This document shows, piece after piece, positions 31,157 to 63,747 of a DNA stretch of 64,000 nt. The stretch is from Akkermansia muciniphila. Lineage in GTDB: Bacteria > Verrucomicrobiota > Verrucomicrobiia > Verrucomicrobiales > Akkermansiaceae. Positions within the stretch are counted from its first letter, which is position 1. Every line of letters starts with the position of its first letter. Below the pieces are notes generated by a model that worked only from the letters and a program-made list of their open reading frames with translations, did not search any database and was not told the origin of the DNA. Position numbers and translations under genes: made by a program. The stretch is taken from NCBI RefSeq assembly GCF_900184965.1, contig NZ_FXYA01000185.1:62001-126000 (forward strand), in the 5' to 3' direction.

Positions 31157-34100
31157 ATGATCCAATGGTTTTTTGACATTCCTTCCAAGCTGATTCACTG
31201 GAGGCTGAATCTGGTCAGGACGCTGGGCGCCTACGTACCGTGGCTGCGCCGTGACGACGGTTCCATGAAGGTGCATGCCGGCACGCTGGTGGACTTGTTC
31301 GCCACTATTTTGAGCGGGCGCCGCCATTTGAGCGCCCGTGATGCGGACGCCGCCCTGGATATTCTGCGCTATACTTTCCCGGAAGTGGAGCACCGCTGGC
31401 TTTCCACCCGTTTCGAGCGCTCCATGAGGGCCAATCTGACGGTGGCGGACGTTCTGGCCTCCGCCGCTTCCGGCAGGGATGAGACGGAACGCATGACGAT
31501 AGCGCTGGAGGTGCTCTCCCTGCTGATCAATACGGGAGATTCCCGCATGACCGGGGAGCTGTTTGACCAGGTGACGTACGGTCTGGAACTGCCGGGCACC
31601 GCAAACCACTTGAGGCAGCTGCTGATGACGCCGGACGTGGAGGCCCAGGAACCGGCGTACAGCGTCAGTTTTTCCTCCGGCATCGGGGCGGAGGTATCCC
31701 TTCCGGAGCAGGACAAGGGCATTTCCTTCCGTCTGATCCGGTGTTCCCGTCTGGTGCTGGTGGTGAACGACGGCTCCCGCCCCATTGTGGTGCGCGGGCG
31801 CCATTTGCCGCCCGGCGGGGTGATGCCGCTGACCAACGGGCAGGTGGTGCTGCTGCCGTCCGGGCCGCTGAGCTTTGAGGACTTTTCGTTTTTTCTGAAC
31901 TGCAAGCGTTCAGGCAAGCAGGAAGTATGCTATATTTCCCTGGACGGCGGTTCTCTGCAAATCAGCCGGGTGCGTTCCCGGGCCAGCGAGGTGCGCGTGA
32001 ACATGGGACTGGCATGCGAGGTGGAAGTGCTGAGGCCGGAGGTGGAATTTGCGGTTGACGGGAAACGTCTGTATCCCGGTGAAAGCGTGCGCATGGCCTA
32101 TTATTCCTCTTTCATGCTGGACGGGGAAGGGCCTTTCTCCATGGGAGAGGTGCAGAATTCCATGTCGGACATCGGGCGCCGTTTCCGCCTGGACCCCGGC
32201 ACCCGCAAGCTGCGGGTGACCAATCTTCCGGAAAAAGCGCGCAAGGGGGACATGCTGCTGACGCCCGGGCTGGCTCCCGGTGCGGTTCTGGAGGTTTCTT
32301 TTTCCAGCGCCACCAACTCCGGCTGGCTGGAAGTGGTGGAGGCCTCCATGCCTCTGCTGCTCAATGGCCGTCTCATCCGGGGAAGAGTTGCCCTGAGGGA
32401 TGGGGACGTGGTGCATCTGAACGTCTATCATGCGCTGCGCTGCCGTTTTTCCGCCGGGGTGCTGGATGAAGAATACCATGCGATCAGAACCCTCAGCGTG
32501 GAGGGGGTGACTAAGGAATTCCTGCGCTCCGGATGCGTTCTGGACAATATTGACCTGACCGTGAAACGTGGGGAAATGGTGTGCATCCTGGGGCCCAGCG
32601 GGTCCGGGAAAAGCACGCTGCTCTCCATGCTGGCCGGTCAGCTGCCGCCCACCCGGGGCTGTATCCGTTACAACAACCAGCTTCTGTACAGCGCCCCGGA
32701 TCTCATACGTCCTTACATCGCTTTCATTCCCCGGGAGGATATTCTGGATGCGGCCATGAGCGTTTCCGAACACATCTCCCAGGCCACCATTATACGCCGT
32801 CCGCGGCTGAACCGGTCGGAACGCGTCAGGCGCGTGAACGCCATTTTGAAATTCCTGGGGCTGACGCACATCGCCTCCCGCCGCGTGGGCGAAATGAACG
32901 CCCGCACCATTTCCGACGGGGAGCGCACGCGCCTGAACCTGGGGCTTGACCTGACGGGCATTGCGGACGTTTTCCTGCTGGACGAACCTATCAGCGGCCT
33001 GTCCACGTCAGATGCCAAGCTGGTCATGCAGACCATGCAGAGCATGAGCCGCGACAAAATGGTAATCGCCACCATGCACCGGCCCAGCACGGCTATTCTG
33101 AACCAGTTCCACAAAGTGCTGGTGCTGGACCACGGCGGCCAGATGGCTTACTGGGGGGACGTGCCGGGCATGATGCGGTATTTCCGGAAGGCGGCTGCGG
33201 ACATGGGCATTGACGTTTCCGAGGAGGCGCGGACGGCCGGAGGCGCGGACTACGTGTTTGAAGCGCTGGAAGCCCCCCTTTCCTGGCATGACCGCCGCAG
33301 GCGGCAGCACCCCCGTCTGTGGCAGGAGCGTTTTGAAGGCTACCGGTTCCGCAATGTGATGGGGCATCATCATGAAGGGGGCGCTCCCAGGACGCTGTAT
33401 GAAGGCACGCTGGAATTTCCGCCCGTGCCCAGGCGCAGCGTCATGCAGCTCTGGCGGCTTTTCCGCATTTGGGCCGTGCGTACCTTCCTGGGGCGCGTGC
33501 GAAGCCGCATGGGGTTGTACACCATGCTGCTGGAAGGTCCGGTTCTGGCTCTGCTGATTTCCGTGACCCTGCGCGCCTCTTCCAGCCCGGAATACACGTT
33601 TGCCACGGCTCTTCACATACCTTCCTACCTGTTTCTGGCGACCATTGTGGCCATGTTTTTCGGCCTGACCGGGGCGGCCAGCGAAGTGCTCAAGGACCGC
33701 GCCCTGCTCAAAAGGGAGAGCAACGCCAAGGTGTTCGTGACCGGTTATGTCCTCGCGAAGGCGCTGGTGCTGACGGGGCTTTCCGCCGTGCAGTCCGCCC
33801 TGTTCCTGTGGGTGGGGAATGCCATTCTGGAAATCCATGAAATGTTCCTGATTTACCTGGGGACGATGACGCTGACGGCTTTCGTCGGCGTAAGTCTGTC
33901 CCTGCTGGTCTCCGTCTTCGCCAGAACGGAGAGGGCGGCGCTTAACATGGTGCCTCTGCTTCTGATTCCCCAGATACTGATGGCCGGGGCCATTGTCCAT
34001 TTTGATGAAATGAACCAGTTCATTCCGTGGTCCGCCCACCGTACGGACGAACATGGGCGCCTCAAGCCGGGGCGCGTGCCGCTGGTGGCGGAATTCTGCC

Positions 34101-34693
34101 CTCTGCGTTACTCCTTTGAAACAATGTTGGTGGACCAGGCGTCCAGGAATGTATGGGAGAGGGAGCGTGAAATCATTCAGGAGAAAGTGGATGAACTGAA
34201 GGAACGCCCTCATTTGGACGACAGGGAATTTGAAGAATTCAAGCTGCTCAAGATGGCGTTGCTCCACATTGCCGCTATTGGAGCGGATGGACCGGAACAG
34301 GCTAAAGCCGCCGTCCGGCAGGTTCGGAGGGCGGCTCTTGACGGTTCGGAAAAAAGCTACAGGCGGACCATTGCTGAATTGGAACTCCTGGGCAAGGGGC
34401 ATCCGTCCGTCAAATCCTTTTACGTCAATGACCGTGTTGTGATGCTGGATGAATCAGCCGAGATTCAGCGCGTCAGCCGGGATGCCCTGGACAGGCCGGA
34501 AATTTTTCTGGGCCGCCGCCAGCCTCTGCCCTGGGAAGGCTCCGGCCAGTCCCCGGGGGATTCCGGATACAGCGCGGATGACGGAACGGTTCCCACTCCA
34601 TGGAAGGATTCCCTGTTTCTGTTCCTGATGGGGGCCGCCCCCCTGCTGGTCACGGGCCGCGTCCTTAAGCGCAGGCTGGAAAGGGCCGGATGA
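31157..34693 (+). CDS. ABCG-type ABC transporter with FHA-like and TerB-like N-terminal regions
   Basis: 1178 residues. A helical N-terminal part (about 35-125) resembles TerB-like domains; two beta-rich parts (about 165-285 and 300-440) look like degenerate FHA units. Then comes an ATPase (about 445-690): Walker A GPSGSGKST, an altered signature ISDGERTR in place of LSGGQ, Walker B VFLLDEP and the switch-histidine region ATMHRP. The membrane part (about 760-1170) has about six helices of the ABC2 type, with a large soluble insertion at about 955-1120. This is the reverse (ATPase first) order of ABCG half-transporters, which dimerise. Fused regulatory FHA domains are known in Rv1747-like proteins. 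The substrate is unknown. Confidence 0.85.
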   Translation: MIQWFFDIPSKLIHWRLNLVRTLGAYVPWLRRDDGSMKVHAGTLVDLFATILSGRRHLSARDADAALDILRYTFPEVEHRWLSTRFERSMRANLTVADVLASAASGRDETERMTIALEVLSLLINTGDSRMTGELFDQVTYGLELPGTANHLRQLLMTPDVEAQEPAYSVSFSSGIGAEVSLPEQDKGISFRLIRCSRLVLVVNDGSRPIVVRGRHLPPGGVMPLTNGQVVLLPSGPLSFEDFSFFLNCKRSGKQEVCYISLDGGSLQISRVRSRASEVRVNMGLACEVEVLRPEVEFAVDGKRLYPGESVRMAYYSSFMLDGEGPFSMGEVQNSMSDIGRRFRLDPGTRKLRVTNLPEKARKGDMLLTPGLAPGAVLEVSFSSATNSGWLEVVEASMPLLLNGRLIRGRVALRDGDVVHLNVYHALRCRFSAGVLDEEYHAIRTLSVEGVTKEFLRSGCVLDNIDLTVKRGEMVCILGPSGSGKSTLLSMLAGQLPPTRGCIRYNNQLLYSAPDLIRPYIAFIPREDILDAAMSVSEHISQATIIRRPRLNRSERVRRVNAILKFLGLTHIASRRVGEMNARTISDGERTRLNLGLDLTGIADVFLLDEPISGLSTSDAKLVMQTMQSMSRDKMVIATMHRPSTAILNQFHKVLVLDHGGQMAYWGDVPGMMRYFRKAAADMGIDVSEEARTAGGADYVFEALEAPLSWHDRRRRQHPRLWQERFEGYRFRNVMGHHHEGGAPRTLYEGTLEFPPVPRRSVMQLWRLFRIWAVRTFLGRVRSRMGLYTMLLEGPVLALLISVTLRASSSPEYTFATALHIPSYLFLATIVAMFFGLTGAASEVLKDRALLKRESNAKVFVTGYVLAKALVLTGLSAVQSALFLWVGNAILEIHEMFLIYLGTMTLTAFVGVSLSLLVSVFARTERAALNMVPLLLIPQILMAGAIVHFDEMNQFIPWSAHRTDEHGRLKPGRVPLVAEFCPLRYSFETMLVDQASRNVWEREREIIQEKVDELKERPHLDDREFEEFKLLKMALLHIAAIGADGPEQAKAAVRQVRRAALDGSEKSYRRTIAELELLGKGHPSVKSFYVNDRVVMLDESAEIQRVSRDALDRPEIFLGRRQPLPWEGSGQSPGDSGYSADDGTVPTPWKDSLFLFLMGAAPLLVTGRVLKRRLERAG

Positions 34694-34843
34694 CGCTTGC
34701 GGCCTGCGGGGGTTGGCGCCTGTATTTCCTCCGTAAGGCGGAAAATCCGGCGCGCGCGTCCGGGGAATGGCAGCGGCCCGTAAGCCCCCCGTGCGTCCCG
34801 CAAAAAACGGAGGGACTCCTTCAAATATTCTTTTATTTATGTG

Positions 34844-34871
34844 TTGACGCGCCGGACGGAATCACTATCCT
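34844..34871 (+). promoter_or_regulatory. Promoter for the first small lipoprotein
   Basis: TTGACG (34844-34849), 16-nt spacer, TATCCT (34866-34871), 20 nt ahead of the ATG at 34892. Confidence 0.55.
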
Positions 34872-34891
34872 TGAAGAAAATCTTTTTCTTT

Positions 34892-35446
34892 ATGTTTTCC
34901 CGATTGACGAACAGGTGCGTATTATCTTCCCTTTCCGCAGCAGCCTTGTCCTTTGGACTTTTTTCCTGCGGAGGCAGCGGCGGCAGCGGTGACGGGGAAA
35001 GCCTTCCTTCCGGCACCATGCTGGATTTGAGCGCTTCTCTTTCCACGGAAGATGGGCTGGGGCCGTGGAATATTGTCGTCAAATTGACGGGTAATGGTTC
35101 GGATCTGCCCCTGGTAAGCATTAACGCGGCAAGCAGCAATGAGAGCGCCCCTATGAATATTGCTTCCGTAGTGTACCGCAGGACGGGGTCATCTGCTATT
35201 CTGCGGGGAAACTTCACGATTACTTCCGGACAGTGGACGGCTCCGGGGCCAATTGTCGTGACAAACAGGGACAAGGCTTTTGTGGATGCGAACATTTCCT
35301 TCAACTCTTCCAATGAACGTGAAAGCTGCGGCGGGACGTTTACCGGTTCCATCACTTATCAGGTTCCCGTTGAAAATGATGAAGGTGAGGAGGAAGCGCA
35401 AAACTGGACCGCTACGGAAGGAGCGGTGAGTTACACGGTATCCTGA
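34892..35446 (+). CDS. Small lipoprotein of the Gly/Ser-rich family (1)
   Basis: 184 residues from ATG 34892. A signal peptide ends in the lipobox LFSC, followed by GGSGGSGDGES, giving a lipid-anchored cysteine with a flexible linker. The mature part is beta-rich with many Ser/Thr/Asn and ends EGAVSYTVS. Function unknown. An upstream in-frame start at 34841 (GTG) adds residues before the signal peptide and lies at the -35 of the promoter, so I rejected it. Three similar lipoproteins lie at 38450-38932, 38960-39475 and 56018-56479. Confidence 0.75.
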   Translation: MFSRLTNRCVLSSLSAAALSFGLFSCGGSGGSGDGESLPSGTMLDLSASLSTEDGLGPWNIVVKLTGNGSDLPLVSINAASSNESAPMNIASVVYRRTGSSAILRGNFTITSGQWTAPGPIVVTNRDKAFVDANISFNSSNERESCGGTFTGSITYQVPVENDEGEEEAQNWTATEGAVSYTVS

Positions 35447-35507
35447 AGTTCTGATCATTTATGACGGGGCTTTGCCGCCGTGAAACGGGGCAGGCCTGTT
35501 TGAAATT

Positions 35508-36563
35508 ATGGTCGGAAGGGCAAAGAAATGTCTTTGGGGCATCTGGTTGTGCTCTGGGCTGGCCCTTTGCGGCTGGAATGCGGAATCGGCCGACCGGGGG
35601 ATTGATATGGCGGCATCGAAAGATGCCTGTTTTATCAAGACCTTCCGCGCCAAAATTGTCCCGGAGAGGCTGCGTTCCTTTGTCATGCCGGCGGATGGAA
35701 TTGTCAGCAACTGGATTCCCGCGGACGGGCGCGTTCAGAAGGATACTATTATTGCAACAGTCAATGAAGATGAAATTGAACTGGAGCGCAAAGAGCTGGA
35801 AGTCAAAATTCTGAAGGATCGCATCGCCAGGGAGGAAGAGTTGTCAAAGCTGGAAAAACAGCTTGAAGAGATAGAATTCTACTCTTCCCTGACGAGGGAG
35901 GAACGGCAATATGCCAGCAAGCAGGCGGAAGGCGGGGAAAGGGCCATCCGGGCATTGAAAGACAAGATTGAGCTTTCCAAAAGGGAGTTGTCCCTGGTGG
36001 AGGACAAGCCGCGTCTGGATTTTCGCAAGAAGGAGGAAAAATATATCCTCAGAATGCCTTTTGACGGGAAACTGCAGTACCAGTTTTCCATTCCGCCGGA
36101 TAACAGCGTCGCCCTGTACATGGATGCCGCGTCCCCGATTGCGACCGTGTGCGATGACTCCTCTTATTATCTGACCATTTCCATTTCGGACCCTGATTTG
36201 ACGAATCTGCCGCCGGAATCCCTTTCCCTGTCCGTCCCCCTGGGTGACGGTTCCGCTTTGAAGGGGGTTTTTGCCTTCAAGCGGGTAGAGAAAAATATTT
36301 CCGGCGGAGGGGAATTGCTGGCGTATTTTTTCCGTCTGCCCCGCCAGGAGCATGAACGCGCCCATTCCATGCTGGGCTCCAACTGCACGGCCCGTCTTTA
36401 TTATATGCCGCAGGGAGAAGTGTTTCATCTCAACAAGGTGAGGCTGGCTTCCCTGCCGGAAGGGAAAAAATGTTCGTCCTGGCAGGAACTTCTTGAAAAA
36501 GTGCATCCGGAACTGGAACTGGTGGTGAATGGGGAAACGGAATTGATCGTTCGAAAAAAATGA
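35508..36563 (+). CDS. HlyD/MacA-type periplasmic adaptor protein
   Basis: 351 residues. A signal-like N-terminus is followed by a lipoyl-like half (RSFVMPADGIVSNWIPADGR, about 58-78), a long charged coiled coil with many Glu/Lys (about 85-160), the second half (EEKYILRMPFDGKLQYQF) and a beta-barrel part. This is the arrangement of membrane-fusion proteins of ABC exporters such as MacA or DevB. Its stop overlaps the next ATP-binding gene by ATGA, fixing it in one operon with the ATPase and permease. It would bridge the inner-membrane permease to the TolC-like protein at 39672. Confidence 0.82.
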   Translation: MVGRAKKCLWGIWLCSGLALCGWNAESADRGIDMAASKDACFIKTFRAKIVPERLRSFVMPADGIVSNWIPADGRVQKDTIIATVNEDEIELERKELEVKILKDRIAREEELSKLEKQLEEIEFYSSLTREERQYASKQAEGGERAIRALKDKIELSKRELSLVEDKPRLDFRKKEEKYILRMPFDGKLQYQFSIPPDNSVALYMDAASPIATVCDDSSYYLTISISDPDLTNLPPESLSLSVPLGDGSALKGVFAFKRVEKNISGGGELLAYFFRLPRQEHERAHSMLGSNCTARLYYMPQGEVFHLNKVRLASLPEGKKCSSWQELLEKVHPELELVVNGETELIVRKK

Positions 36564-37192
36564 AGTTGCTATGCGAATCAGTCTGTTTCAGTTATTCAGG
36601 CAAGCAGTGGATTTTTGAAAATTATAACAGGGTGTTCACTTCCGGAATCACCATTTTGAAAGGGTATTCCGGATGCGGGAAAACAACTCTGTTGAAAATT
36701 CTGGCGGGTTATCTGAGACCGCAGCGCGGGCGCGTCATTACTCCCCGGCGGAAGGTTCAGGCGGATTCACTCTATCGGCGCAAGGAGGTGAGTTACATGT
36801 TCCAGGGGCTTAATCTCCTTCCCCTGGCCACGGTGGAGAGAAATCTTCAATTATGCGCGGAAATGGCCATGCTGCCTAAAAAACAGTGGACGCGGAGGGC
36901 GGATGATTTGATTGCCCGCCTGGGCCTGGAATCGTTGAGGCATAAAAAAGCGGGGAGTTTGTCCGGCGGCCAGGCCCAGCGGGCGGCTCTTGCCCGCACG
37001 ATGATGAAGGATTCCGATGTGCTGCTTCTGGATGAACCTACTTCCGGCCTGGATGACGGCAATACGGAAATCATTAAAAATTTGATCAGGGAATACCCTG
37101 CTGACAAAATCTGCATTTTGAGCACGCATGATTCCCGGCTGTTCGACCTGACCCATGAAATCATTGATTTTAACCTGTCTGTATCTCTTTAA
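36560..37192 (+). CDS. ABC transporter ATP-binding protein (LolD/MacB/DevA-like)
   Basis: 210 residues. Walker A GYSGCGKTT near residue 34, Q-loop region MFQGLNLLPL, signature LSGGQAQR near residue 134, Walker B VLLLDEPTSGLDD and the switch histidine in ILSTHDSR. It is a compact stand-alone ATPase, shorter than typical (220-250) at the C-terminus. It overlaps its upstream gene by 4 nt and its downstream permease by 38 nt, a tight coupling. It would power the FtsX-type permease that follows. Confidence 0.92.
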   Translation: MKLLCESVCFSYSGKQWIFENYNRVFTSGITILKGYSGCGKTTLLKILAGYLRPQRGRVITPRRKVQADSLYRRKEVSYMFQGLNLLPLATVERNLQLCAEMAMLPKKQWTRRADDLIARLGLESLRHKKAGSLSGGQAQRAALARTMMKDSDVLLLDEPTSGLDDGNTEIIKNLIREYPADKICILSTHDSRLFDLTHEIIDFNLSVSL

Positions 37193-38300
37193 AGATACTC
37201 TCCACCGTTGGAAGGAACGCCCGGCCAGTCCCCTTTCACGGATTCTGGTGGCCTTTTTCCTTTCCCTGTGCGCGCTCTCTTTTCTCGCCAATTATGTTCT
37301 CTCCTCAAAAATGCTGCATGATGAAATCAGGAAGAACGGGGCGGACCTGATTATTGTTTTTGATACTGTGCGCGACGGGGACCCTTCCAAGAAAAATTTA
37401 CTGCAACATGAACTGCCGTCCCTGTATGGCTGCGATGTCCTGGTGCTGAATGACGCCCGTGCGGGTGTGGCGCGCGTGGGTAAGACAGTATTCCCCGTTC
37501 TGGAATACAACATGGAGTCCTGCTCCTTTCTTTCCGCGCTCGGGTTGGAGGACGTGGCCACCGTCCTTCTGTACAATCCCTCCCGGAGCCCGTTGCAGGC
37601 GGGGCCTTGTACGGTTACCATAGCGGATTTTGATTTTTCCCTGAATGCCTCCCCTTTGCCGGAGGGGCATTTGCTGGGCAGGCTGTATCCTTCCGGTGTC
37701 ATTTTAGCCCCGGAGGGAACTTTCAGCTCCGGACAGGAGGTCCCCATGGAGAATTGCCGCTATATCATCCGGGTGCATGAAATGACGGCGGCACGCATTC
37801 GGAGCATCGAAGAAGTGCTGAACAACATGGTGCGTTATGACGGCAGCATGACTATGGTTCAGACTCACGTGGGGCTGCTTGACAGGCTGGAAGTGCTGAT
37901 GGGCAACCAGACGGAGTGCAGGACGGGGTTTTCCCTCGGCATTGCGGTGATCGTCGGCATTCTGCTGACAGCCCTGGCATCCATGGAATTCCGCCAGAAT
38001 GAATATGTCTATACGCTGATGAAGAGCTTCGGGGTGCGCCCTGTTCTGCTGATTATGGCGTTTATCGTGGAAAACGCGTTCCTGATTGGCGTCTCCTTTG
38101 CGGGCGCCGTCTGGGCGTTCATGAAAACCCAGAGAATCGTCTTGGGGGAATTCTTTAAGCTGGGAAACTCCGTCCTGACTTATGCCGATATACGGCAGGA
38201 TTTGTGGCTGCTGGGCATTTCCCTGGCGGGGTGTGTGCTGCTTTCCTCCATCCCGGTCGCCTTTTCCGCCTGCCGTCCCATAGGGAAGGTGCTTAAGTAA
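37155..38300 (+). CDS. FtsX-like ABC transporter permease
   Basis: 381 residues. One membrane segment near residues 28-47, a large periplasmic domain to about residue 255, then three more membrane segments (about 258-277, 295-320, 350-373). This is the four-helix FtsX/MacB/LolC topology. The stretch SMEFRQNEYVYTLMKSFGVRP matches the coupling loop of that family. The start lies inside the ATPase gene (38-nt overlap); the next Met is too far in. In MacB the permease and ATPase are fused, while here they are split as in DevC/DevA or LolC/LolD. Confidence 0.85.
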   Translation: MKSLILTCLYLFKDTLHRWKERPASPLSRILVAFFLSLCALSFLANYVLSSKMLHDEIRKNGADLIIVFDTVRDGDPSKKNLLQHELPSLYGCDVLVLNDARAGVARVGKTVFPVLEYNMESCSFLSALGLEDVATVLLYNPSRSPLQAGPCTVTIADFDFSLNASPLPEGHLLGRLYPSGVILAPEGTFSSGQEVPMENCRYIIRVHEMTAARIRSIEEVLNNMVRYDGSMTMVQTHVGLLDRLEVLMGNQTECRTGFSLGIAVIVGILLTALASMEFRQNEYVYTLMKSFGVRPVLLIMAFIVENAFLIGVSFAGAVWAFMKTQRIVLGEFFKLGNSVLTYADIRQDLWLLGISLAGCVLLSSIPVAFSACRPIGKVLK

Positions 38301-38396
38301 GTGACGGGGATTCGGGATCTGCTTTCCGGCATGTCCGTCTTTGCCCGCCTGGGGGAAAAGGCTGGCTGTGTCCCGGCAGGGTGGGAGATACTGGAT

Positions 38397-38432
38397 AAAA
38401 AAATCCCTTCCCGCCATGAGAGCGGGAAGGGA
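38397..38432 (-). terminator. Terminator, minus-strand lipoprotein pair
   Basis: A perfect 11-bp stem (38404-38414 with 38422-38432) and seven T on the minus-strand side (complement of 38397-38403). It serves the lipoprotein genes ending at 38450 and may also stop transcripts of the permease operon. Confidence 0.85.
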
Positions 38433-38449
38433 CGTATGAAAAAAGGGGG

Positions 38450-38932
38450 TTATTGATCCAGCTGGGGGGGGACTCTGAAGTCTCTGATGACCGCCTGGCA
38501 GTTGTCCTGCTGGGTCTCCGTCTCGGTATATTCGGCGTCTCTGACGCTGCAAGTGGCGGAACCGAGGCCTTTGGAGATGTTGTGGGGGTTATACAGCACG
38601 ACGAGAGCGTCCAAATGGGAGGTTGTTGTGCCGTCATTGGATGACCAGTAAAAGCCTATCTGTTCCGCAGTGTCGGAGGCGGGCTTGTAGTTGATGACGT
38701 GAACGGATGCCGTCGAGGAGGTCGGGCTGGTTCCGGTGTAAATGGCGGCGTTGCTTTCTGAGGTTGTGATGAAGGAGAAGACGTAAGGATTGCCGTCCGG
38801 AAGCGTAATGTCCAACGTGCGCTGAAGGCCGATGGGAAGATAGGCCTGTTCACTGGAACTGGATCCGCCGCAACCGGAGAGGGTCCCAAGCCCGAGAGTA
38901 ATTAAAGCGGGAATGTAAAGGCGGGAATTCAT
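38450..38932 (-). CDS. Small lipoprotein of the Gly/Ser-rich family (2)
   Basis: 160 residues. The signal peptide ends in the lipobox LSGC, followed by GGSSSSEQ. The mature part (QRTLDITLPDGNPYVFSFITT, SSTASVHVINYKPASDTAEQIG) is Ser/Thr-rich and beta-type, with two later cysteines (SATCSVR and DNCQAV) that could form a disulfide. It follows the next upstream minus-strand lipoprotein by 27 nt and ends at a strong terminator, so the two form an operon. It lies between the exporter permease and the TolC-like gene. Confidence 0.75.
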   Translation of the reverse strand: MNSRLYIPALITLGLGTLSGCGGSSSSEQAYLPIGLQRTLDITLPDGNPYVFSFITTSESNAAIYTGTSPTSSTASVHVINYKPASDTAEQIGFYWSSNDGTTTSHLDALVVLYNPHNISKGLGSATCSVRDAEYTETETQQDNCQAVIRDFRVPPQLDQ

Positions 38933-38959
38933 ATCTTGATGAATAGAAGGTTGATGTTG

Positions 38960-39475
38960 TTAAGACTGGGATATGATGTTGATGCTGATGGTGATGCCGT
39001 CGATGGGGATGGGCGTCCTGTCTTCCGCTTGCATGTAGGAAATGCTGGCTCCGCCTTCTCCGGAAGAAGCATGGGTGGCGTTTTCAAAGGTTAACTGGGG
39101 GATCCTGATGGTGCTCATGAGGGTGTTGGGTTCTGAGGATGAACCGCTGTTTCTGTTGTAGGACAGACTCAGTTCCGCCGTGTTTTTCCCGGTTTTGGTA
39201 TAGGAATAAATGCCGGCTCCGTTCCACATGTTCATGTCTTCCCCTTGTGTCTGGATGATGAACATCCCGTTATCACCGGTGGTCATGTCAAAAATGGCGG
39301 GAAGCGTTATGGCGGCATCCGTAATGCCTGTTACCTGCATGTTTAACACCTTGCTGCCGATGGTGGAAGGCGCCAGGCCTTCAGCATCGGAACTGCTTCC
39401 GCCGCACTGAGCCAGCGTAAGAATGCCGAGGGTGCAGCAGACCGCAGAAAAAGAGGTAAAAAGAGGACGCATCAT
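38960..39475 (-). CDS. Small lipoprotein of the Gly/Ser-rich family (3)
   Basis: 171 residues. The signal peptide ends with the lipobox LAQC, then GGSSSDAEG. The mature domain holds NGAGIYSYTKTGKNTAELSLSY, a beta motif shared in spirit with the lipoprotein at 56018. I used ATG 39475; a second ATG follows directly. A -10-like TATTAT lies 6 nt before this start (39487-39482). The longer open frame upstream overlaps the TolC-like gene and is not supported. Confidence 0.75.
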   Translation of the reverse strand: MMRPLFTSFSAVCCTLGILTLAQCGGSSSDAEGLAPSTIGSKVLNMQVTGITDAAITLPAIFDMTTGDNGMFIIQTQGEDMNMWNGAGIYSYTKTGKNTAELSLSYNRNSGSSSEPNTLMSTIRIPQLTFENATHASSGEGGASISYMQAEDRTPIPIDGITISINIISQS

Positions 39476-39630
39476 AAGAGGATAATAATTTTCCGATAAA
39501 CTGTGATATCGCACTTGATTTGTCAAGATAGGAATCGGATGGCAAGTATTTTTTACACGGGAAAGGGAAAAACCGGATTCCCTGCGCTCCGGCCCCTTTT
39601 TCCTTCTTCCCCGGCCTGCCGTGTTGATGC

Positions 39631-39658
39631 TTGACTTTTCAGGGGCAGGAGCTATGTA
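39631..39658 (+). promoter_or_regulatory. Promoter for the TolC-like gene
   Basis: TTGACT (39631-39636), 16-nt spacer containing TTCAGGGGC, TATGTA (39653-39658), 13 nt before the ATG at 39672. The spacer resembles that of the promoter at 41011. Confidence 0.5.
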
Positions 39659-39671
39659 ACAAGGGGCCTGT

Positions 39672-40961
39672 ATGTTCCCTTTTCCCCCGGTTGTCCGTTC
39701 TTTCCTGTTTTCCCTGTTTGAAGTGGCGTGGCTGAGGGCTGCGTTGCGCTTCTGCCTCTGTGCGGCGGTATGCGCCTCCTGCTCCGTGGACAGGCACATG
39801 GAAAAAAAAGCGGGGGAATTGATGGCCAGGATGGATGCCGTTCCCGATTGGCGGCAGCTGCCGCGGAAGGAAATTTCATGGAGCCAGGCTCTGGAGATGA
39901 TGATGGAGCGGAATATTGACCTGAAAAAATCGGAACAGTCTCTCAAGACGACAAAACGTTCCGTCATCAATGTTTTTACCCAGATTATCCCCGGCGTCAA
40001 TCTGGACTGGATGCTGACCAAGGAATTGAGCGACCTGGCCAACGTGACGGCCAGCGATGTGGAATACAACACGAACATCCTGTTCAACATGCCGTCCCTC
40101 ACCCAGATCCCGTTTGATTATTATTCCGCCAAGGCGGCCGTTTATACGGCGGAAAAGACGCTGGAAATGAAAAAAAGGGAGCTGGTGGCCAGATTGTACC
40201 AGCAGGTGCTTTCTTACCGGAATGCGCAGATCAGCTACAATAACCAGCTGGGCTCCCTGCCTTATGACGATGATGGCGTCCAGAAAAAGAAGCTGGACGT
40301 GGAACGGGAACGGAATTTGAATGAGATTTCCCAGGGTTTTGCCGTGCTGCTGGGGAATATGGACGCCCGGTGGCTGGTGAAGCCTGAAACGATGCCCAGA
40401 CTGGATTGGGGCAGGTACAGGGCGGCGTCCCGCCAACTGGATCTGCTGGTGGTGACGATGGTGGCCATGGAGCTGGAAGCTTCCCGCCTCCAGGTGTTGA
40501 ATGCCAAGCTGAAGTTCCTGCCTTCCGTGGATATTAATTTTTACAGCCCCACTCTGTTTTCCAGCACGGGCGGGACGTACGGCGGTTTTTTTGCGGGCGC
40601 GGGCGATATGAAGGTGAACATGAGCCTGCGGGAAGAGCTGGATACGCGCCTGACCTCCTGGTTTCAGTATAAATCGGCCAAGGAAAGCCACGAACTGCTG
40701 CAGCGTGAAGTGGTGATGGAACTGCAGCGGCGGCGCATCAAGATAGCCGCGCTGCTGGAGAGCCGCAGGAGGTTTGAACTTTGGCGGGGGGTGCTGATGA
40801 AGGAAATCGCGTTCAAGGAGTCCAGATTATCCGTTTCCGGAGAGGAATATCTGGAACAGAGGAAGGATATCAGGAAAATGTATGCTGACCTGGATAATGA
40901 AGCTTCCAAGAATGCGGAGGTGGAAGCGGCTCTCATCATGGAATACGGCTGGCTGAAGTAA
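39672..40961 (+). CDS. TolC-like outer-membrane lipoprotein of an exporter
   Basis: 429 residues. The signal peptide has a possible lipobox ending in CASC (near residue 37). The rest is a tandem alpha-helical/barrel pattern typical of outer-membrane efflux proteins: EISWSQALEMMMERNIDLKKSEQSLK (about 67-92), long coiled-coil stretches, and a second repeat from about residue 260. It lies downstream of the adaptor-ATPase-permease operon, separated by the lipoproteins on the other strand, and is the likely outer-membrane duct. Length is typical. Confidence 0.8.
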   Translation: MFPFPPVVRSFLFSLFEVAWLRAALRFCLCAAVCASCSVDRHMEKKAGELMARMDAVPDWRQLPRKEISWSQALEMMMERNIDLKKSEQSLKTTKRSVINVFTQIIPGVNLDWMLTKELSDLANVTASDVEYNTNILFNMPSLTQIPFDYYSAKAAVYTAEKTLEMKKRELVARLYQQVLSYRNAQISYNNQLGSLPYDDDGVQKKKLDVERERNLNEISQGFAVLLGNMDARWLVKPETMPRLDWGRYRAASRQLDLLVVTMVAMELEASRLQVLNAKLKFLPSVDINFYSPTLFSSTGGTYGGFFAGAGDMKVNMSLREELDTRLTSWFQYKSAKESHELLQREVVMELQRRRIKIAALLESRRRFELWRGVLMKEIAFKESRLSVSGEEYLEQRKDIRKMYADLDNEASKNAEVEAALIMEYGWLK

Positions 40962-41010
40962 GGCAACGGAGGATGAGGGGCTTCCCTGTGTGACTGCGGG
41001 GCTTCCTTTC

Positions 41011-41039
41011 TTGATGCTTTCAGGGGCTTGTGCTATGAT
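41011..41039 (+). promoter_or_regulatory. Promoter for the 41046 gene, probably leaderless
   Basis: TTGATG (41011-41016), 17-nt spacer containing TTTCAGGGGC, TATGAT (41034-41039), then 6 nt to the ATG at 41046. Confidence 0.65.
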
Positions 41040-41045
41040 CCGGAT

Positions 41046-42002
41046 ATGCAAAAAGTTCGGCAGCCCGCGGGCACGGCATTGATGATTCTGGCTTTCCCGG
41101 CCGCCATTTACGGAGCGTTTCCATGGGGAATTGCCCTGGGGGCCTTTTTGTTTTTGCTGGGGGTGATTGTGGCGACCAGCCGTTTTTCCGCCATAGTCTG
41201 GTCATGGTGCCTGTTTTCCCTGGGAATGTATCTGGCGGCTCCTTTTATCTGGATGTGGAATCCGGACTATTTTTTCAGCCGTTCGTTTGACGTTCTGTTG
41301 ATAAGCGGCTGTCTGGTGGGCAGCCTGGTGTTGCTTACGATCCGGTTCGCGGTTATTCCCGTGCTGTGGCCCAGGGTTTTCCGCTACTTCGTGGAAGGAA
41401 GCCCCACGCTGGAGGATCTGGCCCCGGAGAAGGGAAAGACGGTGGCTGAACTGCGGGGCGGCATAGAACGCAGACAGGTGAATTTCCTGTTCGGGCATGC
41501 GGACCGGGAACTGGTGGAAAAGTGGGGGAAAATAGCCCAGGGAATCGTAGCTCTTTCCAAAAGCCGCAAACGGCTGGCCATATGGGCTGTAGGTATTTTC
41601 CTGGTCTGGCCCGCAGCCGTGTTTTTCCTTTCCGGGGGGATGAGCGGCGCGCTGGACCGGGATATTGACCGCATGTGGGAGACCCGTCTGTTCCGGGACG
41701 GCATGGTGGTTTCCAGCCCAGCGGCGATGAATGCGGCGCGCCGCGTTTTCAGGGATGCCCGGGCTCTGCGGGGGCTGACGATGGAGCAGGCGCGCGCGTG
41801 GCTGAGGACGGATCGCAGGAATGCGGCATTCAAATTGGGCAAACCCCGTTACGATTTTGAAAAGGATGAAACCGTGCTGGTGCTTTCAGATGGGAGGGAT
41901 TCCATCCGCCTGGTGGCGGTTTTCAATGATGCGGGGCAGATTACCCATTCCTGGCCTGAGGAGTATATGACTTTGATGGTCAGGGATCTGGAGAAAAATT
42001 GA
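41046..42002 (+). CDS. Integral membrane protein of unknown function
   Basis: 318 residues. Four hydrophobic segments at about residues 12-50, 52-70, 85-105 and a later one near 180-200 alternate with a soluble region (about 115-175), then a C-terminal soluble domain of about 110 residues (residues 210-318) that contains AARRVFRDARALRGLTMEQAR and ends TLMVRDLEKN. I do not recognise the family. The promoter hexamer ends 6 nt before this ATG, and an in-frame TTG at 41028 is inside the promoter and cannot be used. It converges on the next gene. Confidence 0.7.
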   Translation: MQKVRQPAGTALMILAFPAAIYGAFPWGIALGAFLFLLGVIVATSRFSAIVWSWCLFSLGMYLAAPFIWMWNPDYFFSRSFDVLLISGCLVGSLVLLTIRFAVIPVLWPRVFRYFVEGSPTLEDLAPEKGKTVAELRGGIERRQVNFLFGHADRELVEKWGKIAQGIVALSKSRKRLAIWAVGIFLVWPAAVFFLSGGMSGALDRDIDRMWETRLFRDGMVVSSPAAMNAARRVFRDARALRGLTMEQARAWLRTDRRNAAFKLGKPRYDFEKDETVLVLSDGRDSIRLVAVFNDAGQITHSWPEEYMTLMVRDLEKN

Positions 42003-56017: not shown

Positions 56018-56479
56018 ATGAAAAAGTTGTTCCCTGTCTTGTTGCTGATTCCTGTGACGGTGTGCGGATTGTTGTCCGGGTGCGGCGGAGGTTCGGGAAA
56101 ATCCGGAGACGACGGGAACACTTCCCTGAGCGGACAGCAGGTAAGCCTGTTTGAGGGAGGAAGCATCTTATTCCAGCTCCAGTTCAGCGGGCAGGACGTG
56201 GATGTTATCAGAATGGATACAAGAGCCGTGTATGACGGGGTTTATACGTACCGGTTCAATAGCGGGGAGAATGCCGGCGTATTGAATATTGCTCCGGCAG
56301 CCAACAGCAGCTCCGCCTGTACCATGGCGAATGTGAACATTGCCTTTGACGACGCCGGGCGGAATGCGGGCGTCATTACTTCGGGCACCATTACGGAAAC
56401 CGGTCTTGATTTGGACCCTGCCATTGACGGCGTTCCCCGCTCCATGGCCGGTTGGACATGCCGCGTACACCGGAATTGA
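56018..56479 (+). CDS. Small lipoprotein of the Gly/Ser-rich family (4)
   Basis: 153 residues from ATG 56018. The signal peptide ends in the lipobox LSGC and continues GGGSGKSGDDG. The beta-rich mature part has YDGVYTYRFNSGENAGVLNI, similar to the equivalent part of the lipoprotein at 38960. It ends WTCRVHRN, with a further cysteine in SSACTM. Alone and converging on the dCMP deaminase (11 nt between stops). The start 18 nt upstream (56000) is less likely because MKK is the normal signal start. Confidence 0.75.
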   Translation: MKKLFPVLLLIPVTVCGLLSGCGGGSGKSGDDGNTSLSGQQVSLFEGGSILFQLQFSGQDVDVIRMDTRAVYDGVYTYRFNSGENAGVLNIAPAANSSSACTMANVNIAFDDAGRNAGVITSGTITETGLDLDPAIDGVPRSMAGWTCRVHRN

Positions 56480-61524: not shown

Positions 61525-63747
61525 ATGCGTTTTTCCAACATGAATATCCCCCGCCATCGCCGCCAGGGGCGCGGTTTGCACCGTGCCGCCGCCATTGGCA
61601 GCCTGCTTGTTCTCGGACAGTCTGCCTATGCCGAGACACAGCCTGCCGCAGCAGAGGAAGGCGTGCAGGAAATGCCGGAACGCGTGATGACCATCCGTTC
61701 CAGGTCCCTGCGGGCGGAAACGGTCAGTTCCGCCACTCTTACGAACATGAAGACGGAGGAAGTTCCGCAAACGGTAAACGTCATTACGAGGGATCTGATG
61801 GATTCCAAAGGGTCCGATTCCCTGGTGGAAGCGCTGCGTATGGATTCCTCCGTCAATACGGGTGGGGACATGCTTTTGTCCCGTACGGCGGACCAGTACA
61901 CCATTCGCGGCTTTGCCGGCAGTGATGTTCAGCTCGGCAACATGCCTCTTCCGCGAGGCATGGGGTATGGCATGGATACGTCCCTGATAGAAAATATTGA
62001 GATTGTCAAAGGCCCCATCGGTTCCATTTCCGGCGGTCAGACCAGTACGCTCGGGGCATACGGCGCCGGCGGTTCCATCAATCTGATCCTGAAGGGGCCT
62101 GATTTTCTGGAACGGACGGAGTTGACGGCTTACGCCCGCCTTTCCCATCACGGGCAGAAATACCGCGCAACGATTGACGATACCCGGTACAGGGGGGATG
62201 AAACGAATGGATTTGCCCTGCGTACGGTGGTAGCCGCCGAGTATGAACGCCCGTTCTGGCTGAGCAACGGAGCCAACGGAGGCCAGAAGTACACGGTGTC
62301 CCCCATTTTCCGCTGGCAGCATGATTCCCGCACCAAGACGGTGCTGACGACCAGTTTCCAGTATCAAAATTCTCCGACGACTATGGGCATCCCTGTGTTG
62401 GGCGGCCATTTTGTGGGGCCGTATGACGCTTGGTACGGTTCTCCGAGCGGAAGGCTTAATTCCAAATCCCTGCTGGCGATGCTGGATTTCGAACGCAAGC
62501 TGGAAAAGATATGGACGATCCGCATTGGCGGCGGTATTGGGTACAGCGATGTGGACTATAATGTCTGGGGCATTTCCTCTTCCGCTGGGAGAGGAACCAG
62601 CACGGCGGATTATTACAACCAGATGATTGCTTCCGGAAAGGCTAAATATGAAGCCGCCTGGAGCGACGAGTGGAATATCAACTGGAATTTTTATTCCAAT
62701 GCACTGGCGGAATTTAAGACCGGGCAGGTGAAGCATGAAGCCCTGATGGGCGTTTCTTACACGGGGAGCAGCACTTATGGAGACGGTTCCAGCCTGGTGA
62801 CAAATGCCACCGCAAACACGAACGGCTATTTTCCCCTGTACAATCCTCCTCCTTTTTTCCCTGCAGGGCGCGATTATTCCGGCGCCAATGCGACGGATAC
62901 TGTGGTGCAGAGGGCGGGTTTTCTGCTGCAGGATGTCCTCAGTTATGGACAGTGGCGTTTTCTGGCCGGCGTTCGCGGTGACGCGCATTTCAGCCTGGAC
63001 AATAATTATGCGTTTGCGTGGAGCCCCCGCTTCGGAATTACCCGCATGTTCGGCGAACGCGTAGCGTTGTTCGCCAACGCAGCCCGTACCTCCGCCCCCA
63101 ACTTCGGGTATCTGGATGAAAACGGAAAGGAATTGACCGATTCCTGGCGTACGGACCAGATGGAATTCGGTTTCCGGGTCAGCCCGGTTGATAAGGTGTG
63201 GTTTTCCGCTTCCTGGTTTGACATCATCCAGAATAATACGCCTGTCGCCATAGACGGATATACCAACCGGTACTATTCGGACGGCTCCAAGAGGGCGGAA
63301 GGCGTGGAACTTTCCCTGAACGGGGAAATAACCAAGAATTGGAGTTCCTATCTTTCCTACACCTACACCCGTACCAAGAACCGGACCACCGGGGAACTGT
63401 ATCCCACGATTGCTCCAAATGCTCTGGCCCTCTGGCAGAAGTACCGCATTGACGGAGGATTGCTGAACGGGACGGTGCTGGGACTGGGCTACCGCTGCAA
63501 GGATTCCTACTACGCTACGTTCCGAGGCGCAAAAATTGCGGACAACTACACCATCCCCTCCTATAGCGTATTCGACTTTACGGTGGAAATCCCTCTGCCG
63601 GAATCCAAATGGCTGAAAGATGCCACGCTGAGGCTGGCTGTGTATAATATCTTCGATAAAAAGTACGTGCAGTCCACCCGCCATGCCGTGCAGTGCACGG
63701 TGGGAGAGCCGCGCACGTTTGAAGTAGGCCTGAAGACCACGTTTTAA
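61525..63747 (+). CDS. TonB-dependent siderophore-type outer-membrane receptor
   Basis: 740 residues from ATG 61525. After the signal sequence (cleavage near SAYAE) comes a plug domain: [29 protein letters not shown], the family-like [17 protein letters not shown] and [16 protein letters not shown] long barrel follows, ending VGLKTTF with the terminal aromatic. It resembles ferric-siderophore receptors (FhuE/FpvA group), with the C-terminal motif [13 protein letters not shown]. Ligand unknown. A start at 61540 (MNIPR) or 61489 is possible. An ABC ATPase gene follows after 15 nt, so the pair may be one uptake or export operon. Confidence 0.92.

Follow-up and report, generated by a model that had tools for sequence, protein, structure and literature searches.

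Several well-described envelope systems share parts with the locus considered here. The Aat/Cex system of enterobacteria (AatPABCD with Aap or CexE) resembles it in that the MacB/Lol-like permease and the ATPase are separate proteins, accompanied by an adaptor and a TolC-like protein; extracts of one report describe its cargo as small and acylated, with a mature start made up of a mixture of Gly and Ser residues (GGGNS in CexE), and, for slightly fewer than one case in four, place the cargo gene less than 1 kilobase (kb) from the operon (PMC7943197). MacAB-TolC likewise has an adaptor, a Type VII permease fold and a TolC-like duct, the DevBCA-HgdD glycolipid exporter has separate adaptor, permease and ATPase genes with a TolC-like partner (PMC8277102, in part), and LolCDE, which handles lipoproteins, has the same permease fold. 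The route by which lipoproteins reach the cell surface is an open question in most Gram-negative phyla. Akkermansia lives in gut mucus as a symbiont, and its effects on the host are under study. We have analysed a 64,000-nucleotide (nt) stretch of Akkermansia muciniphila DNA (the window: positions 62,001 to 126,000 of contig NZ_FXYA01000185.1, assembly GCF_900184965.1), in which positions 34892–40961 encode an ATP-binding cassette (ABC) exporter together with three small lipoproteins, lp1, lp2 and lp3. We favour, with modest confidence, the reading that this is a Type VII ABC exporter of tripartite build, with Cys-acylated, Gly/Ser-tethered lipoproteins as its candidate cargo, and the pump may put these lipoproteins on the cell surface.

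The original prediction, made from the letters of this stretch, described a split MacAB/DevBCA-like exporter interleaved with lipoproteins. Its layout was borne out, with an adaptor, a split-off ATPase and a permease in overlapping genes, a TolC-like gene about 1.4 kb downstream and three short lipoproteins, and so was its exporter class, given the MacB fold, the separate ATPase and the DevBCA/Aat-like tripartite layout. The features are as follows.

34892..35446, plus strand: lipoprotein lp1, 184 residues, with a lipobox (LFS-CGGSGGSG), directly 5' of the adaptor gene.
35508..36563, plus strand: periplasmic adaptor of HlyD/MacA type, assigned from place and conservation (HlyD_2 PF12700, E 0.00079, below the curated cut-off).
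36560..37192, plus strand: ABC ATPase in its own gene, apart from the permease (PF00005, E 4.8e-30).
37155..38300, plus strand: Type VII ABC permease of the MacB/LolE/FtsX fold, assigned from its predicted structure.
38403..38433, minus strand: terminator-like hairpin after lp2, with a 13-bp stem and a T run, a consensus match only.
38450..38932, minus strand: lipoprotein lp2 (LSG-CGGSSSSE), with homologues in muciniphila-type species.
38960..39472, minus strand: lipoprotein lp3 (LAQ-CGGSSSDA), distantly related to lipoproteins beside ATPase-less modules.
39672..40961, plus strand: TolC-like outer-membrane factor (PF02321, E 0.0022, below the curated cut-off), with a lipobox of its own (CSVDRH).
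56018..56479, plus strand: lp4, an unlinked fourth lipoprotein with a Cys-Gly-Gly (CGG) start (LSG-CGGGSGKSG), with homologues in loci L227 and L228.

The adaptor and ATPase genes overlap by 4 nt and the ATPase and permease genes by 38 nt, and 1371 nt separate the permease stop from the TolC-like start. Read by eye, the TolC-like protein appears to be a lipoprotein itself (AVCAS-CSVDRH). No useful match to lp1–lp3 was found in Pfam, NCBIfam or PHROGs; judged from their homologues in other species and from a ratio of non-synonymous to synonymous substitution rates (dN/dS) of 0.09–0.19 against a close relative, they are nonetheless real genes. With their minus-strand orientation and the terminator-like 13-bp stem at their end, lp2 and lp3 probably form a separate transcription unit.

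The evidence that carries our reading begins with the mature ends of these lipoproteins, which are CGGSGG in lp1, CGGSSS in lp2 and CGGSSS in lp3, Cys-Gly-Gly-Ser being common to all three. Candidates were collected with a lipoprotein detector that ignores the residues after the Cys, was applied alike to all sets of loci and missed the window's TolC-like protein. As a control, about 30% of G006, a genome in a single contig, was sampled outside the locus in 40 pieces of 20 kb each (800 kb in all); by genome kinship, G006 belongs to the same species as the window's own genome (G000). CGG starts were present in all three candidates at window positions 34000–41200 vs none of the 38 in the control (one-sided Fisher p 9.4e-5), and two alternative versions of the detector gave 0 of 32 and 0 of 45 over the same 800 kb. 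They were also present in 30 of the 36 candidates at 13 loci of the A. muciniphila-like clade (a tally that omits G006, locus L084, with the window counted separately) and in 14 of 27 at 11 loci with paralogous exporter modules. These counts rest on the reading frames of fetched stretches, because a DNA-pattern search for CGG starts across whole genomes proved too noisy for counting and was dropped. Profile comparison detected no homology among the mature domains of lp1, lp2 and lp3, so that the shared start is not simply due to whole-protein common descent; whole-protein homology of the three was rejected at the sensitivity of that comparison, in which only lp3 joined other lipoproteins, those of an alignment designated A4. 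The AlphaFold2 model of lp1 was too poor to be used for fold searching (predicted local distance difference test, pLDDT, 46.5).

The original prediction looked to conservation of the whole block in other Akkermansia, and would be contradicted by lipoprotein genes missing or rearranged beside a conserved exporter. Such contrary loci exist in part of the genus, namely 58 exporter loci with no CGG lipoprotein alongside and four species with an inverted segment, but in the nearest clade the lipoproteins are largely kept. The permease was found in 72 of 76 genus genomes and a TolC homologue in 69; surroundings were read around the listed permease matches, several of them on short contigs. In what we term arrangement (i), an lp1 homologue lies directly 5' of the adaptor in all 15 genomes of the A. 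muciniphila-like clade (G000, G006, G005, G012, G004, G046, G009, G001, G044, G010, G007, G008, G011, G057 and G075). Three CGG lipoproteins are present at the locus in 12 of the 15, namely homologues of lp2 and lp3 in eight and other CGG lipoproteins in four (G044, G010, G007 and G008), and in these four (L091–L094) the exporter segment runs in the opposite orientation with respect to its neighbours, the ABC-2 transporter gene and the TolC-like gene. A phase-variable inversion was considered and rejected, the window and L091 having no long flanking inverted repeat when scanned (none exceeded 25 nt, and those were at 72%). In the window, an ABC-2 type transporter of 1178 residues (31157–34693, plus strand) stands directly 5' of lp1; it matches the white-like family TIGR00955 at E 2.3e-52, under the cut-off, and has a long N-terminal part with scarcely any Pfam match.

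Arrangement (ii) comprises 58 loci without a CGG lipoprotein beside the exporter, and none of the 26 lipoprotein candidates there (882 kb) has a CGG start. A DnaX homologue lies upstream at 46 of them (a Pfam check of the neighbours confirmed one DnaX and one YbaB), and a TolC homologue was not found beside the exporter, being located elsewhere where the genome has one. The 58 include L083, with no permease in its table of open reading frames, L109, which is cut just upstream of the permease, and both loci of G002 (6% contamination), whose exporter occurs on two contigs with identical scores. At some of the loci L062–L071, which lack CGG lipoproteins, an integrase-family gene follows the permease directly on the opposite strand (PF00589 at L067). 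When the permease profile was run more widely, 29 of 387 genomes of the phylum matched, 24 of them from the genus, three from the family and two from the class. Among named genomes, scanning turned up 73 loci, nearly all of them titled Akkermansia or Akkermansiaceae, with Verrucomicrobiales, 'uncultured bacterium' and one Opitutales among the other titles, and in these CGG lipoproteins occur only beside exporters of arrangement (i) and of a third kind.

This arrangement (iii) provides the recurrence on which our reading also rests. Eleven loci (L072–L082) hold 12 extra adaptor–permease–TolC modules, in none of which was an ATPase found by tblastn with the window ATPase. All 11 modules that are readable have lipoprotein neighbours (that of L075 is unreadable upstream, where its contig begins), and at eight these are CGG lipoproteins (L073, L074, L076, L078, L079 twice, L080 and L082). 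The lp3 family is distantly related to the lipoproteins of L074 and L079, both by BLAST (E 2.7e-4 for L074) and by hhalign of lp3 against A4, the alignment of the L074 and L079 lipoproteins (E 9.8e-05, probability 58%). The neighbouring lipoproteins are between about 150 and 640 residues long, some have repeated domains when read by eye and the number of copies per module varies; on account of the wide size range and the repeated domains they fit cargo better than subunits. The 640-residue CGG lipoprotein at L079 (13727–15649) has, by eye, several repeats with a Y-x-Y-x-K/R-T/S-G motif and no Pfam match.

Several of the L072–L082 modules adjoin a gene of the phage-integrase family (the one checked, at L076, is PF00589), and one possibility to be weighed is that the exporter loci are insertion hotspots which gather fast-evolving lipoproteins with no functional tie. 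Integrase-family neighbours (PF00589 in both that were checked; the family's 13 members are spread over 13 of the exporter loci that were read) and the inverted cassette of four species speak for such hitch-hiking. We nevertheless consider it quite improbable, as a lipoprotein recurs immediately 5' of the adaptor at independent sites and the 58 arrangement (ii) loci have no CGG candidates, although some of them carry the integrase family too.

Sequence families barely score for the permease (FtsX in Pfam at only E 0.16), and its class was settled by its predicted fold. The model, predicted from 34 sequences, has a mean pLDDT of 84.1; its top Foldseek match is MacB (5lil, E 8.8e-10), and in structural comparison MacB (Z 17.5), YtrF (17.1) and LolE (17.1) are tied within 1 Z. 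By this model the protein is a Type VII ABC permease, a predicted fold that on its own leaves the substrate undecided among drugs, lipids and lipoproteins. The co-occurrence of its gene with those of the adaptor and the TolC-like protein suggests a tripartite layout, and the pump probably spans both membranes. MacB as best structural match on both measures would suit a conventional MacAB-type pump for efflux of drugs or toxins, beside unrelated lipoproteins, but substrate is not given by fold and LolE ties with MacB, the ATPase and permease are on separate genes and the lipoprotein linkage recurs, so that we regard this explanation as very improbable. Assignment to the Lol system was rejected, as the permease has no NCBIfam match at E 0.1 and the matches to the LolCE model (TIGR02212) lie elsewhere. 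The best of these in its own genome is a 556-residue open frame on contig C82 (E 1.7e-38, under the curated cut-off), and the housekeeping Lol transporter is probably encoded there, to judge from this match. A single Lnt exceeds the family cut-off in G000, on contig C145 and none on contig C210; the second match to the Lnt model, at 24 bits, is far below it. We count both the LolCE-like locus and the single Lnt in favour of our reading.

A separate LolCE-like locus in the genome would equally suit an exporter that moves a lipid, a glycolipid or another small envelope molecule in the manner of DevBCA. The split layout and the match of the ATPase to the DevA model (TIGR02982, E 6.7e-36, 123.9 bits) resemble DevBCA as well, and the exporter core persists at the 58 loci with no CGG lipoprotein adjoining. 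Against this, the DevA score is far under the cut-off of 295.8, which was not reached, and lipoproteins serving such a pump as accessory subunits should keep their domain, whereas the mature domains beside these exporters differ, with the range in size and copy number given above. We consider the lipid exporter unlikely, while granting it more weight than hitch-hiking or drug efflux.

The lipoproteins also diverge faster than the exporter. Between the window and G005, dN/dS was 0.09, 0.19 and 0.13 for lp1, lp2 and lp3 vs 0.02–0.09 for the exporter parts, and between the window and G012 (dS saturated) identity was 39–44% for the lipoproteins vs 73–90% for the exporter parts. Positive selection on the lipoproteins is unsupported: no dN/dS value reaches 1, and in the more distant comparison dS is saturated. 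They are constrained yet fast, as would be expected of exposed or exchanged cargo, a pattern consistent with our reading and no proof of it.

A number of observations weigh against lipoprotein cargo recognized by a CGG start. The first is the absence of CGG starts at the 58 loci of arrangement (ii); in genomes of that kind (G002, G048 and G056 among them) CGG lipoproteins sit elsewhere and, if they are cargo, the exporter would have to serve them in trans. Neighbours at three extra modules are not of CGG type (CSNKS at L072, CSNSG at L077 and CHKSKGGGG at L081), and lp2 and lp3 are encoded on the other strand and followed by a terminator-like hairpin of their own. As to size, a review suggests that dispersin, at 10 kDa, may mark the upper limit for folded cargo of a MacB-type pump (PMC5985334, in part); lp1–lp3 exceed it, and some of the neighbouring lipoproteins reach 640 residues. 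A DNA pattern for a CGG lipobox gave 53 matches vs 40 in the control across the whole of the window's own genome, only a slight excess, and another genome-wide CGG pattern gave 163 vs 182. Moreover, extracts of a further report state that Gly stretches after the Cys are frequent in other bacteria and that Neisseria fHbp is still surface-displayed in E. coli when its Gly stretch is deleted or replaced (PMC5500766). By analogy, the CGG motif could be just a flexible linker.

When the 53 pattern matches were inspected by eye, they included four lipoprotein genes (lp1–lp4) and four further possible starts (C174:60710, C125:16573, C57:44009 and C39:91769 in G000). CGG lipoproteins distant from the exporter are often in tandem (L214, L217, L219 and L221) or follow very large genes (L218, L220, L224 and L225, in arrangement (ii) or other genomes). 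Of the large genes directly before the CGG lipoprotein genes at L218, L224 and L225, one has PATR repeats, which are of autotransporter type, another matches RHS repeat and peptidase M76, and another encodes a GH2 beta-galactosidase with an F5/8 domain. In the window, some 15 kb separate lp4 from the TolC-like gene upstream of it. Homologues of lp4 occur in comparable settings in G010 and G012 (L227 and L228), and lp4 is a possible further cargo candidate.

The original prediction's suggestion of a cargo or accessory role for the lipoproteins has gained strong circumstantial support from their shared CGG start and its recurrence at independent modules; from these, together with gene order and fold class, we infer acylation, export, surface display, energy sharing and cargo status along the following lines. 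Our working hypothesis is that the adaptor, ATPase, permease and TolC-like protein would collect lipoproteins on the inner membrane's outer face and carry them to the surface of the cell. After export of lp1–lp3 by Sec, the Cys of the lipobox, which is seen in all three, would be acylated by the ordinary enzymes, among them the one Lnt found. Cys-Gly-Gly-Gly/Ser would form a tether without bulky side chains, and lipid and linker would enter the periplasmic cavity of the permease in a LolE-like manner, as its fold suggests. ATP-driven mechanotransmission would then drive the cargo, probably unfolded or partly folded, into the duct formed by the adaptor and TolC-like protein with no hand-over to LolA, the lipid would pass into the outer leaflet and the beta-rich domain would be displayed or shed. 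The exporter would stay stable while the cargo genes turn over fast, and modules without an ATPase may borrow that of the main copy, which, if true, would be an uncommon instance of ABC energisers being shared. The full proposal, in which a Gly-Gly-Gly/Ser tether marks Cys-acylated cargo for a MacB-class pump and TolC-like duct rather than for Lol, and satellite modules bring cargo and share the ATPase, is tentative and less likely than not.

Judged by title and the opening of the abstract, none of the listed search hits, which were in several cases only part of the total, deals with this locus or with the export of lipoproteins in Akkermansia. The outer-membrane proteome of A. muciniphila names RND efflux parts, autotransporters and YD proteins, and lp1–lp3 are not named in the main-text passages of it that were examined (PMC4960237). 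Surface lipoproteins would directly touch host tissue, and the question lends itself to genetic testing, the exporter being compact and genus-wide, with candidate cargo linked to it and an N-terminal tag that is defined.

How, then, does the locus compare with known systems? MacB has its ATPase and permease in one chain, whereas here they are two overlapping genes. DevBCA differs in gene order, which here is adaptor–ATPase–permease; the present ATPase also falls short of the DevA cut-off, and lipoproteins adjoin the present exporter. Unlike LolCDE, the locus has an adaptor and a TolC-like partner, and its permease matches no LolCE model. The closest analogue, by layout, is Aat, whose cargo differs in having no lipobox and being acylated on glycine by the Lnt-like AatD (PMC7943197, in part); the Akkermansia candidates have a lipobox cysteine before the Gly-Gly, and in their genome only one Lnt exceeds the family cut-off. 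It is on account of the Aat layout, the lipobox cysteine and the single Lnt over the cut-off that we propose an Aat-like exporter for ordinary Cys-acylated lipoproteins. The CGG start also resembles the lipoprotein export signal (LES) of Bacteroidota, a short motif that immediately follows the acylated cysteine and is linked to surface display, although the LES is acidic where the present motif is Gly/Ser and its machinery is described, in extracts of that report, as still unidentified (PMC6222051). If the full proposal set out above is true, the system would be a Verrucomicrobiota counterpart both of Aat and of the machinery for surface lipoproteins that is still being looked for in Bacteroidota.

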